Shown here: one piece after another, positions 58,507-62,909 of the stretch
Layout of the letters: every line of letters starts with the position of its first letter
Numbering within the stretch: the first letter of the stretch is position 1
Origin: Flavihumibacter fluvii
GTDB taxonomy: Bacteria > Bacteroidota > Bacteroidia > Chitinophagales > Chitinophagaceae
Direction of reading: 5' to 3'
Assembly (NCBI RefSeq): GCF_018595675.2
Contig: NZ_CP092333.1
Coordinates: 1,078,001-1,142,000, forward strand
Length of the DNA: 64,000 bases
Translations under genes and position numbers: made by a program
The notes under the pieces: generated by a model
What the model was told of the DNA's origin: nothing
Databases searched by the model: none
The model's input: the letters and a program-made list of their open reading frames with translations, nothing else

Positions 58507-59604
58507 TCAATAACTCATCACATTATAAATGCAATCTTCAATTTTTTTGATCTGTTGAACTCTTTCAACACCTTTTAAAGAGGAGTGTGTCGGGACTTTT
58601 AAGGAAAGGGCACTACTATCCTCCTTTAAGGATTCCAGTGCGGAAAATATATATTTACTTTGGCTACTAAATACCACACCTTCAGCGGTGATTTGTTTCC
58701 CACTTAAAACACCAATGATTTCACCGGAATGGTTGAAAATCGGACCACCGGAATTTCCGGGGTTTGCTGAAATGGCGATCTGGTAGGCAATAGTATCGCC
58801 ATCAAATCCGGTTTTGGCACTCAGGTACCCTTCATTATAGACAATTTCTGTGCGAGGGAATCCAAGTGTAAAAATCTGTTCACCCAGGTCTGCCTTACCT
58901 CTTCGGATGCCATAAGGCAGACGGTCGAGTGGTTCAAAACGGCTATCTACAATTTTAAGAATGGCGATATCTGTATTATCGTTTACGTGAATAGTCTTTA
59001 CTTTAAAATAGTCCCCTTTATTATTTACAATATAAACGGAATCGGCCTTTGAAACCACATGAGCCGAGGTAACAAGGTAACCCTTGCCATCAATCAGGAA
59101 ACCGGTGCCACCAAATTTGCCTGGAGCAGTGGGGCGGCTGGGGGTGATTTTTATAGTATTAAGTTCTTTTTGTGCCTGCTTCTGGGAAATTTTTACTGCA
59201 TTGATCTCTTTTTTCAAAAGGGCAATTTCCTGCGGACTGCTCTTCGGACTCAGGTAGGCTACTAATCCGCTGATGGCCAAGGCTGTAAGGCCGGCAATTG
59301 AAGCTGCCATCGCAAATACCCGCTTGTATTTATTGATCTGATGCATTACCCGCAGTTTCGGCAGCTCCTCTTTTATTTCATTATTATCGAGTAAATGATT
59401 ATGGGTTTCGTGTAAAAGGGATTTGAAAGCTTTTTTCTCCCCAAACTGTCCAAGCTGCTGTAAAAAAATGGTATGTTCAACAACCAGTTGGTCAATATCT
59501 GGATTTGATTTACGCAATTGCTCAAAATATTCCCGCTCCTGGGTTGTCATCTCATCCTGGATATATCGCTCAACAGTTTCTAAAATTTGTACATCGTCGT
59601 TCAT
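58507..59604 (-). CDS. Membrane anti-sigma-like protein fused to periplasmic trypsin-like protease
   Basis: This is a 365-residue single-pass protein. Residues 1-95 are cytoplasmic and helical (LETVERYIQDEMTTQEREYF), placed like an anti-sigma domain, without a zinc-binding HxxxCxxC. Residues 97-118 are the transmembrane helix, 125-152 a coiled coil, and 165-330 a DegP-type protease with His182 (VTSAHVV), Asp212 (NTDIAIL) and Ser285 (GNSGGP). The start codon overlaps the sigma-factor stop by 4 bp. It therefore probably holds the sigma factor at the membrane and links its release to a periplasmic event; the link is inference. Confidence 0.85.
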   Translation of the reverse strand: MNDDVQILETVERYIQDEMTTQEREYFEQLRKSNPDIDQLVVEHTIFLQQLGQFGEKKAFKSLLHETHNHLLDNNEIKEELPKLRVMHQINKYKRVFAMAASIAGLTALAISGLVAYLSPKSSPQEIALLKKEINAVKISQKQAQKELNTIKITPSRPTAPGKFGGTGFLIDGKGYLVTSAHVVSKADSVYIVNNKGDYFKVKTIHVNDNTDIAILKIVDSRFEPLDRLPYGIRRGKADLGEQIFTLGFPRTEIVYNEGYLSAKTGFDGDTIAYQIAISANPGNSGGPIFNHSGEIIGVLSGKQITAEGVVFSSQSKYIFSALESLKEDSSALSLKVPTHSSLKGVERVQQIKKIEDCIYNVMSY

Positions 59605-60170
59605 GATACCTGGTTTTTATATTGCGCAAAAAACAGTTTTTTCAGTCGGGTAAGGCATTTATACTTCTGGTTTTTAGCATTGTCTGCATTGGTGTAACCA
59701 AAGCTTGCAGCAATATCTACCATATTCCTTTTTTGCAGGTAGTATGCCTCAAGTAGACTCCTGCATGGTTCACCTAAACTCATCATCGATTTTTCCATGA
59801 CCACAAATTCGAAATTCCTTAGCTCATGCTGTTCCAATTCATCTTCTACAGGGACTACTTCGGCAATGCTATCTACTTCAGGTGAATACTTCTGTAATTG
59901 CTGTAAGCGCTTGAGCCACAATCTTCTACAAACAGAATATATATAAGTTTTTAATTGACAATTCAGTTCAAAATGTTCTGATTTTGCTTTTTCATACAAG
60001 ACAACCATGGCTTCCTGAAAAACATCTCTGGCATCATCTATTGTCCCGTTATTATTCACAATCATCGACTGTACCATTCCATAGTTTTGTTTATAAATGG
60101 TTTCTGTCGCCTTTCGGTCGTTCCCGGCCAATCCTTTCAGCAATTCTTTTTCTAATGGATCTGAGGTCAC
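59601..60170 (-). CDS. RNA polymerase sigma-70-family (ECF-like) factor
   Basis: This is a 189-residue sigma factor with only regions 2 and 4. Region 2 holds DDARDVFQEAMVVLYEKAK and YIYSVCRRLWLKRLQQ. Region 4 holds LEAYYLQKRNMVDIAASFGY followed by TNADNAKNQKYKCLTRLKK, the helix-turn-helix. The start is a GTG at 60170, because no ATG fits the region-2 alignment. It overlaps the protease-bearing membrane protein by 4 bp. Its own upstream element matches that of the divergent lipoprotein gene, suggesting positive autoregulation. Confidence 0.9.
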   Translation of the reverse strand: MTSDPLEKELLKGLAGNDRKATETIYKQNYGMVQSMIVNNNGTIDDARDVFQEAMVVLYEKAKSEHFELNCQLKTYIYSVCRRLWLKRLQQLQKYSPEVDSIAEVVPVEDELEQHELRNFEFVVMEKSMMSLGEPCRSLLEAYYLQKRNMVDIAASFGYTNADNAKNQKYKCLTRLKKLFFAQYKNQVS

Positions 60171-60177
60171 CTTGCTT

Positions 60178-60211
60178 TATTTAATACCCAAATTAACAAA
60201 TAGTAACCCGG
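60178..60211 (-). promoter_or_regulatory. Two-block promoter of the sigma-factor operon
   Basis: On the minus strand CCGGGTTAC (60211-60203) is followed after exactly 15 bases by GTATTAAATA (60187-60178), eight bases from the sigma-factor GTG. The same two blocks with the same spacing are found on the other strand at 60242-60274. Confidence 0.7.
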
Positions 60212-60241
60212 AATGCCGGCTGAAAAAAAATATTTTATGGA

Positions 60242-60274
60242 CCGGGTTACCTTTTTCAGCTTTCTGTATAAATA
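60242..60274 (+). promoter_or_regulatory. Two-block promoter of the divergent lipoprotein gene
   Basis: CCGGGTTAC (60242-60250) is followed after exactly 15 bases by GTATAAATA (60266-60274). This leaves about a 40-base leader to the lipoprotein ATG at 60315. It mirrors the element in front of the sigma factor. Confidence 0.7.
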
Positions 60275-60314
60275 GGAAATCATTCATTCAAACATTCAAA
60301 AAAAAGAAGAACAA

Positions 60315-60512
60315 ATGAAAAAGCTCCTTTTTGTCCTGGTTATTGGCGCCTTTGCAGCTTGTAACAATGCTGCTGAAACTACTGAAGCTGTTGCTGATTC
60401 TGCTACAACTGCAGTTGAAGCTGTTGCTGATTCAGCAAAAGCAACAATCGATTCTACTGCATCTGCTGCTGTAGATAGCATGAAAGCAACTGTTGATTCT
60501 CTGAAAAAGTAA
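60315..60512 (+). CDS. Small Ala/Thr/Val/Asp-repeat lipoprotein
   Basis: This is a 65-residue lipoprotein. The signal peptide ends in a lipobox (AFAAC, Cys16). The mature part is a run of near-repeats of about 11 residues (AVADSATTAVE, AVADSAKATID, SMKATVDSLKK), predicted to be amphipathic helix. It has no aromatic residue after the signal. Its promoter region matches that of the divergent sigma factor, so it is a likely member of that regulon and perhaps an abundant envelope-stress protein. Confidence 0.8.
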   Translation: MKKLLFVLVIGAFAACNNAAETTEAVADSATTAVEAVADSAKATIDSTASAAVDSMKATVDSLKK

Positions 60513-60542
60513 GATTTTTCATATGGCAAGCAATCGTTAGAG

Positions 60543-60569
60543 GCCGTCCTGTTCGCAGGATGGCATTTT
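60543..60569 (+). terminator. Terminator-like hairpin after the small lipoprotein
   Basis: GCCGTCCTG and CAGGATGGC pair (one G-U) around a TTCG tetraloop and are followed by ATTTTT. It is 31 bp after the lipoprotein stop. Confidence 0.7.
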
Positions 60570-60590
60570 TAACGGCTTCCGGAATTAAGT

Positions 60591-60619
60591 CGATACCAAT
60601 AGGTATCGGCTTTTTTTTT
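60591..60619 (+). terminator. Second terminator in tandem
   Basis: CGATACC and GGTATCG form a perfect 7-bp stem around AATA and are followed by GC and nine T residues. Confidence 0.75.
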
Positions 60620-60935
60620 GCCTGTGGTATATGGGGATTTTCCGCTATTAAAACTGGGGTTTACCATGAGGGTTGTGAAAATATACTAGTTCCAAGAAAA
60701 TCATGGTAAATAATTAGACTTCATAGAATATTTCAGCGTATTTCGTCGTTGTAAAGTATCCGTTCCAATCCTATGCTAAAATAAATTCTTATGAAAACTT
60801 TTCTACTTAATCCGTTTTTAACTAGCCCGAAAATTCAAATCAGGGTATCGGGAAGCTATTTTCAGTCTATTTATAGTTGGTAATCGATTTAGAATTGCAT
60901 ACACGTAGTATCATTTTTAATTTCAATTAACATTT

Positions 60936-62909
60936 ATGAAAAAGCTGATAATCATTATACTAGCAAATTTTGCTGGGCTGTCAAATATTATTGCCCAAAT
61001 TACTACGGCGCAGAATAAGGCGAATTTTGGGGTAGATGCAGAAGTGCGCGCCAGTTTCCTCGGAGCCTTACCTCAACCAGCAGCAACTTCCCATGATTGG
61101 TTTGCCAATACATTGGCCGGGCCACCCCGTTTTATTATTGATACAACCGGGGCTGCCGCCATCACAACAAGGTATATTTCAGACCTGAATTTCAGGAAAT
61201 TGCCCTTTTTCAGGGTTATGAAGTATGACCCGTTTACTATCCTGGATGGCAGGATGCTGATAGATGCGGTATATATCCGGGATTACCATGGATCCGATTC
61301 CACTGTTTTTGCTACTTCCAATAAAAATGGAGATAACCCACAAGTATGGCAAGGATCTTCAGCTCAAAACATACCGGATAAAAATGACCTGCTGGATATG
61401 TATGTGCATGTCAGGAGGGCCGGGTCATTGCCCCGGCTACAGGATTCCCTGTGGTTTATTGGCGGGATAGCCCTTGATGCTACTGCCGGCAATCGGTATT
61501 TCGACTTTGAACTCTACCAAACAGACATATTTTACCAGCGTTCCACCCTGTCCTTCACTGGTTATGGGCCAGACGCAGGCCATACCAGCTGGCAGTTTGA
61601 TCCATCCACTGGGGCTGTTACGAAACCCGGCGATGTGATATTCTCAGCAAATTTTGGTGGAAGCGGCCTTCAGGATCTGGTGGCCAGGATCTGGGTAAAA
61701 AAGACTGACCTGCTGATCAACTCGCCAAATTTCGATTGGGCGGGTGATTTTGATGGTGCTTCTGCGGGAGCTACCTTCGGCTATGCCAGTATAAAGCCAA
61801 AAACTACCCAGAATTTTTACCAGGGACTTCAAAACAGTGCCGCGACATGGTCGGGGCCATTTCAATTACTGCGGGCAAATAATAGTGTTCAAACTACTTT
61901 TGATGCTAACCAATTCCTGGAATTCTCTGTGAATATGGGTACACTGGGGCTGGATCCGATTTCACTTCTGGGTGGTGACCCTTGCGGATTGCCTTTCCGG
62001 CGAATCCTGGTAAAATCCCGGGCATCGTCAGCGTTTACTGCTGAATTGAAAGATTTTGTTGGCCCATTCGACTTCTTTGATTTTCAGGCAGCCGATGCGA
62101 CCGCAGATTTTCCAACCATTTGTGGGGATAATATGATCAGTACCCTGAGTGTAACCAATCCTTTACCCACATCAACCTATTCATGGGTAACACCAGATGG
62201 GAATATTGTTGGGGATACTTTCGGGTACCAAATCACGGTAGACACTCCAGGAACCTATATCGTCAGACAACAATTGCTAAGTGGTTGTAACCAATATGCA
62301 TCCGATACAGTTGTAGTGGCTGCAAGTTTGTCCTGTGGATTATTGCCACATAACCGGATTGACTTGAAAGGGTCGATTAATTATCAGTCGGCCCATCTCG
62401 ATTTTACTGTTTCGGCAAATGAAAATGTACAATATTATTCATTGGAAAGAAGCCTGGATGGAAAAAAGTTTAGTACTGTTAAAGTATTGACTTCCAATGG
62501 CGATATGGGATTAGCGACCTATTTAACAGACGATGATATTTCACAGGTTGAAGGAAGTGAAGTGTATTACAGGATCAAAATGACCCGTTCGGATGGAAGC
62601 ATCCGGTATTCTGAAGCATTGTTGTTGAGCCGACCAATGGAAAAGATGGATGGTTTTACCATTTTACCTAATCCGGTGAGCAGCAAAATGCAGATTCTGA
62701 TAATCGCTGATAAAAAACAAGCGGGAGTCGTTAAAATTTTTAACGCACTTGGTTCGTTAGTTGAAATGAAAAGTATATCACTTGGCTCCGGAAACAATAT
62801 TATAGGTTTTGAAGGATTAGAAAAATGGAGTAGCGGTTTGTATCCGGTTCAGGTTCAGGTAGGTGAAAAACTCTATACGCAGAAAATGATCATTTCCCGT
62901 AATAAATAA
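60936..62909 (+). CDS. Secreted T9SS-sorted protein, function unknown
   Basis: This is a 657-residue secreted protein. It starts with a signal peptide (LIIIILANFAGLSNIIAQ). An N-terminal region (about 20-390, DLNFRKLPFFRVMKYDPF and DAVYIRDYHGSDST) lacks a recognised domain. A PKD/Ig-like segment (STYSWVTPDGNIVGDTFGY) follows, then a beta domain (YYSLERSLDGKKFSTV). It ends with a T9SS tail (ILPNPVSSKMQILI, VVKIFNALGSLVEMK, SGLYPVQVQ, KMIISRNK). It is followed 20 bp later by another T9SS-type gene. Confidence 0.8.
   Translation: MKKLIIIILANFAGLSNIIAQITTAQNKANFGVDAEVRASFLGALPQPAATSHDWFANTLAGPPRFIIDTTGAAAITTRYISDLNFRKLPFFRVMKYDPFTILDGRMLIDAVYIRDYHGSDSTVFATSNKNGDNPQVWQGSSAQNIPDKNDLLDMYVHVRRAGSLPRLQDSLWFIGGIALDATAGNRYFDFELYQTDIFYQRSTLSFTGYGPDAGHTSWQFDPSTGAVTKPGDVIFSANFGGSGLQDLVARIWVKKTDLLINSPNFDWAGDFDGASAGATFGYASIKPKTTQNFYQGLQNSAATWSGPFQLLRANNSVQTTFDANQFLEFSVNMGTLGLDPISLLGGDPCGLPFRRILVKSRASSAFTAELKDFVGPFDFFDFQAADATADFPTICGDNMISTLSVTNPLPTSTYSWVTPDGNIVGDTFGYQITVDTPGTYIVRQQLLSGCNQYASDTVVVAASLSCGLLPHNRIDLKGSINYQSAHLDFTVSANENVQYYSLERSLDGKKFSTVKVLTSNGDMGLATYLTDDDISQVEGSEVYYRIKMTRSDGSIRYSEALLLSRPMEKMDGFTILPNPVSSKMQILIIADKKQAGVVKIFNALGSLVEMKSISLGSGNNIIGFEGLEKWSSGLYPVQVQVGEKLYTQKMIISRNK

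Follow-up and report, generated by a model that had tools for sequence, protein, structure and literature searches.

Can the anti-sigma factor that holds a sigma factor at the membrane and the protease that sets the sigma factor free be one and the same protein? To our knowledge, anti-sigma clearance in known systems uses separate site-1 proteases. The question is raised by two genes in a 64,000-nucleotide stretch of DNA (the window) from Flavihumibacter fluvii, whose genome is a single contig of 5.0 Mb. An earlier note, made from the letters of the window, had read them as a sigma factor gene overlapping by 4 bp the gene of a membrane anti-sigma/trypsin fusion, with a divergent lipoprotein gene as a likely output. 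The features of the locus are as follows.

58507..59604, minus strand: predicted membrane anti-sigma/HtrA-protease fusion, 365 aa
58510..58572, minus strand: conserved C-terminal helix and strand of the fusion, residues 345-365
58615..59112, minus strand: PDZ-less trypsin/HtrA domain, residues 165-330, with H182, D212 and S285
59155..59250, minus strand: heptad coil, poorly conserved, residues 119-150
59251..59328, minus strand: membrane helix, conserved, residues 93-118 (hydrophobic segment; A100, A101)
59380..59604, minus strand: three-helix cytoplasmic domain (N-domain), anti-sigma-like, residues 1-75 (model pLDDT 84, Foldseek, zf-HC2)
59601..60170, minus strand: ECF sigma factor, 189 aa, GTG start (TIGR02937, Sigma70_r2)
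60182..60209, minus strand: putative promoter motif GGGTTAC-N15-GTATTA, facing the sigma gene
60244..60271, plus strand: putative promoter motif GGGTTAC-N15-GTATAA, facing the lipoprotein gene
60315..60512, plus strand: small low-complexity lipoprotein, 65 aa
60513..60570, plus strand: 3' RNA module, conserved TTTTTCATATGGCAAGCAATCGTTAGAGG plus terminator hairpin (60543-60564)

The reading frames and the overlap were as the earlier note had them: the list of open reading frames gave the same coordinates, and the sigma and fusion genes share the four bases ATGA at 59601-59604. The sigma protein belongs to the ECF group, scoring 58.1 bits against the sigma70-ECF model TIGR02937 (cut-off, 42.9), and Sigma70_r2 was matched in the Pfam scan. 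Its nearest paralogue in the same genome (30% identity) is followed downstream by a TPR protein (L037) of the anti-sigma-like kind described below.

Is the pairing of the two genes conserved? We used the 110 best-matching loci, three of them duplicate records: a first set of the best 30, and the best 80 of 501 candidates from a scan of named genomes. The sigma gene lies directly upstream of the fusion gene in every one of the first 30 and in 108 of the 110 overall, and the two loci without it (L087 and L089) sit at contig ends. This adjacency exceeds chance. Conserved adjacency was one of two points on which the earlier note let its reading stand or fall, and a place beside an ECF sigma gene is also expected of class I anti-sigma factors (ASDI); the fusion gene has this place in the same 108 of 110 loci and in all 14 of a more distant set. 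The His and Asp of the catalytic triad are kept in 110 of 110 loci and the Ser in 109, the remaining one reading X; this is most likely L023, owing to its run of N. We rejected an insertion as the reason for the split fusion gene of L023, as the 615-base N-run is an assembly or masking gap.

How far does the fusion reach? When the genomes of 59 relatives were searched with the fusion, 58 gave a match at an E value of 0.001, many of them only to Deg-type proteases. Judged by aligned range, the whole fusion is present in 13 of 15 genomes of the genus (our own included) and nearly whole in 21 of 21 other genomes sampled from the family, and it is absent from the 23 other-family genomes of this 59-genome sample. 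The two exceptions within the genus are a genome in which an N-run interrupts the fusion (G002) and one, 75% complete, with a Deg-type match only (G011). A larger, order-level sample added one fusion from another family (L130). Of 395 genomes sampled from the phylum, 37 matched the fusion profile at an E value of 1e-35: 14 belong to the same family and 15 to three further families of the class, while the remaining 8, from other classes, match in the protease part only. Loci were examined for 13 of the 15, 1 of the 14, and 2 of the 8, respectively. The sigma gene adjoins the fusion gene, at most 94 nt away, in all 14 of the further fusion loci (13 from other families and 1 from the same family), and it was not found in the two protease-only stretches from other classes. 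In two of these 14 loci (L212 and L213), the N-domain seems mostly missing or shortened with the sigma gene still adjacent; their start codons may have been misjudged.

The periplasmic part of the fusion carries the trypsin-fold domain with a His-Asp-Ser triad that is typical of HtrA and DegS proteins. Pfam Trypsin_2 covers residues 166-299 (E value, 5.2e-22), and H182, D212, and S285 stand where a complete triad had been claimed. The description of this protease as DegP type proved apt for the catalytic domain and not for the rest, to which we do not extend the term because no PDZ domain was found in a Pfam scan at E values up to 1. DegS was likewise rejected as a family label, since it is a protein in its own right and carries a PDZ domain; the fusion scores 51.3 bits against the DegS equivalog model, below the cut-off of 422.95. 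MarP, a membrane-anchored, PDZ-less trypsin fold with several membrane helices, resembles the fusion in its anchoring and in lacking PDZ but differs from it in the number of helices, which in the fusion is one. The match to the MarP model NF033740 (E value, 2.6e-18; 66.3 bits) is below its cut-off of 250, and we know of no sigma partner of MarP.

The membrane helix and the coiled coil were also borne out. All 116 fusion homologues, the one from the window included, show a hydrophobic segment where the membrane helix is expected, and in 113 Lys and Arg are richer on its N-terminal side. A100 and A101 within the helix are invariant in 110 of 110 loci. The a and d positions of the coil are hydrophobic at a frequency of 0.65 versus 0.48 in shuffled sequences, and 2.8% of single shuffles reach 0.65. 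The mean frequency of the majority residue is 0.58 in the N-domain, 0.64 in the membrane helix, and 0.65 in the protease, versus 0.37 in the coil and 0.35 after it. Because the coil and the post-coil linker are the least conserved parts of the fusion, a fixed self-cleavage site is not favored. HtrA proteases cleave loosely.

We then asked whether the N-domain is an anti-sigma domain. Its structure model (pLDDT 84) was compared by Foldseek with 350,542 PDB chains at E values up to 10. Eight of the 11 matches were anti-sigma domains (seven RslA chains and one chain of a SigK complex), and yet none was significant alone, all having E values above 1 (best E value, 1.2). The claim of an anti-sigma-like cytoplasmic part is supported as a resemblance of fold and falls short of a significant single match. 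By sequence, zf-HC2 was weakly matched by 9 of 31 N-domain members (best E value, 5.7e-4), and the N-domain of the window protein reached the cut-off of none of the Pfam families. When PDB sequences were searched with a profile of the N-domain, no anti-sigma protein was among the 60 of 132 matches listed; we took these as helix similarity, the best being a designed protein (9e-4) and the other 59 listed nuclear receptors.

A profile of residues 1-120 matches 102 of 248 genomes of the order and 56 of the 60 same-family genomes listed; one of the four nonmatching genomes (G068) has the fusion by the full-length profile. Outside the family, most matches fall in frames of roughly 240-350 aa. We examined 20 loci picked from the better-scoring matches other than ordinary fusions, which turned out to be 5 fusions and 15 other proteins. 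An open reading frame of sigma size lies upstream in 19 of the 20 (the exception is L140) and in 14 of the 15 nonfusion loci. Ten of these 15, chosen for strand convenience, were tested further: the upstream frame passes the ECF model in all 10, and the downstream N-domain protein matches TPR-type models at an E value of 0.01 in 9, some below the curated cut-off. Since TPR-type proteins encoded downstream of ECF sigma genes thus carry the N-domain and membrane helix as well, the two together behave like a cassette that would accompany ECF sigma factors and swap periplasmic parts. Coevolution between sigma factor and fusion was analyzed in 116 pairs (effective number, 94); with the within-sigma check noisy too, the N-domain, linker, membrane helix, and protease had 64, 68, 71, and 46 strong pairs per 10,000, respectively. 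Taken together, the evidence on the N-domain is good but indirect, and from its fold, the cassette swap, and the adjacency we regard an anti-sigma role as highly probable.

What might the sigma factor transcribe? Among 105 distinct pairs, 99 have the 450 nt or more of upstream DNA needed for a search with the pattern GGTTAC-N13-18-GTATNA. The motif occurs in both directions in 87 of the 99 loci, in one direction in 9, and in neither in 3, and the spacers found among all 105 pairs are 15 or 16 only. The fusion genes, used as a control with both strands counted, gave 1 match in 233,820 nt. A looser pattern (G-any-AT), applied to the 14 further loci, faces the sigma gene in 13 and points away from it in 12. 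This promoter pair, GGTTAC-N15/16-GTATNA, is newly found here. Because it faces both the sigma gene and the lipoprotein gene, autoregulation of the sigma factor and a lipoprotein output are likely on sequence grounds; the E. coli sigma-E operon is autoregulated. The motif common to both transcripts also supports the earlier proposal of the divergent lipoprotein as output, and we have little doubt that the sigma operon and the lipoprotein share one regulon, presumably through recognition by this sigma factor.

In the whole genome, the strict motif (GGGTTACN15-16GTATWA) has 3 matches versus 2 for the reversed control. They lie at the sigma gene, at the lipoprotein gene, and at a third gene:

G000:C1:1858576, within 1858505-1859205 (L033, L220): third motif-bearing gene, 216-aa frame

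The third gene matches DUF4332 above the cut-off and, more weakly, glycogen-recognition and helix-hairpin-helix models. It is whole in only 10 of the 15 genomes of the genus, with the motif upstream in 10 of 10; an eleventh, partial match lacks the motif. Across the 15 genomes the strict motif has 37 matches versus 13 for the reversed pattern: 14 at the sigma gene, 7 at the lipoprotein gene, 9 at the third gene, and 7 elsewhere. We rejected a large regulon as unsupported by the strict motif, and the variant GGTTACN14-16GTATWAA gave 5 genome matches versus 7 reversed. At two further matches to this variant (L034 and L035), no same-strand frame of 60 aa starts within 240 nt.

The lipoprotein itself was found by BLAST in 23 of the first 30 loci, and a lipoprotein-like frame, by a permissive lipobox pattern, follows the motif in 93 of the 105 pairs. 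Against the PG1828 family model NF050142 it scores 35.9 bits, below the cut-off of 50. In 9 of the 14 further loci, our script flagged lipoprotein frames after the motif, up to 3 in succession and each with its own motif. Six loci from another family of the class (L204, L205, L206, L207, L209, and L210) carry two or three small lipoproteins in tandem, again each behind its own motif.

Downstream of the lipoprotein stop codon, we came upon a second conserved element: TTTTTCATATGGCAAGCAATCGTTAGAGG, followed by the terminator hairpin at 60543-60564. In 68 of 93 loci, a core, CAANCAATCG, is at most 200 nt from the lipoprotein stop, and by reading, GGCAAGCAA is kept in 10 of the 25 loci without it. 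Exact copies of the 16-mer GGCAAGCAATCGTTAG were present in 29 of 36 genomes from the same family (our own included), up to 8 in each, in 0 of 23 other-family genomes, and not at all in the reversed control. A covariance model picked out the same 29 of the 59 genomes and, in our own, three copies: after the lipoprotein, after a porin-like gene (BBP2), and standing alone. Copies elsewhere are solitary or in tandem; loci with the module, at a porin 3' end or standing alone, are L180:2049-2124, L200:1520-1600, L181, L185, L186, and L197. Among 124 distinct copies in the loci, 80 pass a test for a 6-pair hairpin and a T-run, with 55 different stems; 44 fail it, and the 12 of these that were inspected still fold a hairpin. 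The block before the hairpin is nearly constant, its 12-base centre having served to select the copies. The RNAalifold consensus is weak (-4.92 kcal/mol) and pairs part of the constant block, so that a single-stranded block is only a reading.

No Rfam family reached its gathering score in 60150-60950 (24 weak matches at E values up to 10) or in six other loci with the module, and no description of it was found in the literature searched. The core could be a five-codon reading frame (ATG GCA AGC AAT CGT TAG), against which the ATG is missing from several loci. The module looks like an undescribed regulatory RNA, judged by its sequence. Hfq was rejected as its partner, with 0 of 39 genomes over the cut-off and one weak match below it. 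By eye, six loci from some of the genera (L061, L067, L079, L095, L113, and L115) have an additional hairpin-like stretch between the lipoprotein stop and the core that contains GCTTGC, complementary to GCAAGC of the core. The stand-alone copies L180, L181, L186, and L195 often have, also by eye, a second, degenerate GGCAAGCAATCG plus TTAGAGG, about 60-120 nt upstream of the copy and preceded by a promoter-like TTG...TACTTTTACA.

How could such a protein release its sigma factor? As the best explanation for the whole, we propose a sigma/anti-sigma switch with a built-in site-1 protease, which we put at somewhat better than an even chance. The N-domain, by its fold, cassette swap, and adjacency, would keep the ECF sigma factor in check at the inner membrane. 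In the periplasm, the HtrA-type domain, which may form trimers through the coil, would be activated by an envelope signal and, acting as the built-in site-1 protease, would cut the linker on that side of the membrane, in its own subunit or a neighboring one. A site-2 protease, for which the one M50 protein of the genome is the candidate, would complete the release. The freed sigma factor would then transcribe its own operon and the divergent lipoprotein from GGTTAC-N15/16-GTATNA and, in Flavihumibacter, also the third gene. That the protease cuts its own chain is a narrower claim, for which the chance falls a little short of even. More tentative still, and on balance unlikely, is the full picture of sensor, site-1 protease, and anti-sigma in one chain that would cut itself or its partners in the trimer, with a sigma factor mainly for a tiny lipoprotein whose transcript would yield a regulatory RNA of a new multicopy family.

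The switch with a built-in protease is weakened by its TPR-type relatives, which presumably do the same job without a protease. They suggest that the periplasmic part may mainly bind ligands, and so lend weight to an alternative in which the protease domain serves as effector or sensor and degrades or binds damaged envelope proteins, the sigma factor being freed by a conformational change or by other proteases. The linker without a conserved site and the separate Deg-type protease of the genome (501-aa frame) point the same way, whereas a catalytic serine kept in 109 of 110 loci would be needless for a pure binding sensor; we consider this alternative a substantial, if lesser, prospect. It is improbable that the N-domain is no anti-sigma domain and the fusion a membrane protease merely cotranscribed with, and induced by, the sigma factor, as might be read from the missing Pfam match above cut-off, given that other proteins encoded behind ECF sigma genes carry this N-domain, and given the Foldseek ranking and the membrane topology.

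For the preferred switch with a built-in protease, the working analogue is the E. coli RseA/DegS/RseP sigma-E system (PMC8103513). Both have an ECF sigma factor, a single-pass membrane anti-sigma (predicted here), an HtrA-type serine protease, and an envelope setting. The fusion differs in joining protease and anti-sigma in one chain, in which a PDZ domain was looked for and not found, and in the very small regulon that the strict motif predicts. The nearest named type in Bacteroidota, going by the available text of PMC13088901, is Dma/Das, pairs of an anti-sigma and its cognate ECF sigma factor with a link to the outer membrane. Dma proteins are described there as having domains from the outer membrane to the cytosol, with a protease domain unmentioned in that text. 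The TPR-type proteins of Bacteroidota share with the fusion the kind of N-domain, the membrane helix, and the place after an ECF sigma gene, and differ in a periplasmic part that is TPR type and not a protease. A fusion of anti-sigma and trypsin was not described in the literature searched, as far as its text was available.

In a 2020 survey, class I anti-sigma domains were found beside only 6% of Bacteroidetes ECFs (PMC7406223); a divergent and widespread anti-sigma type would therefore help to explain how the remaining ECFs are controlled. The fused, conserved version, if true, would allow sensing, cutting, and sigma release to be studied in one protein, and the promoter pair offers a direct reporter for finding the signal.
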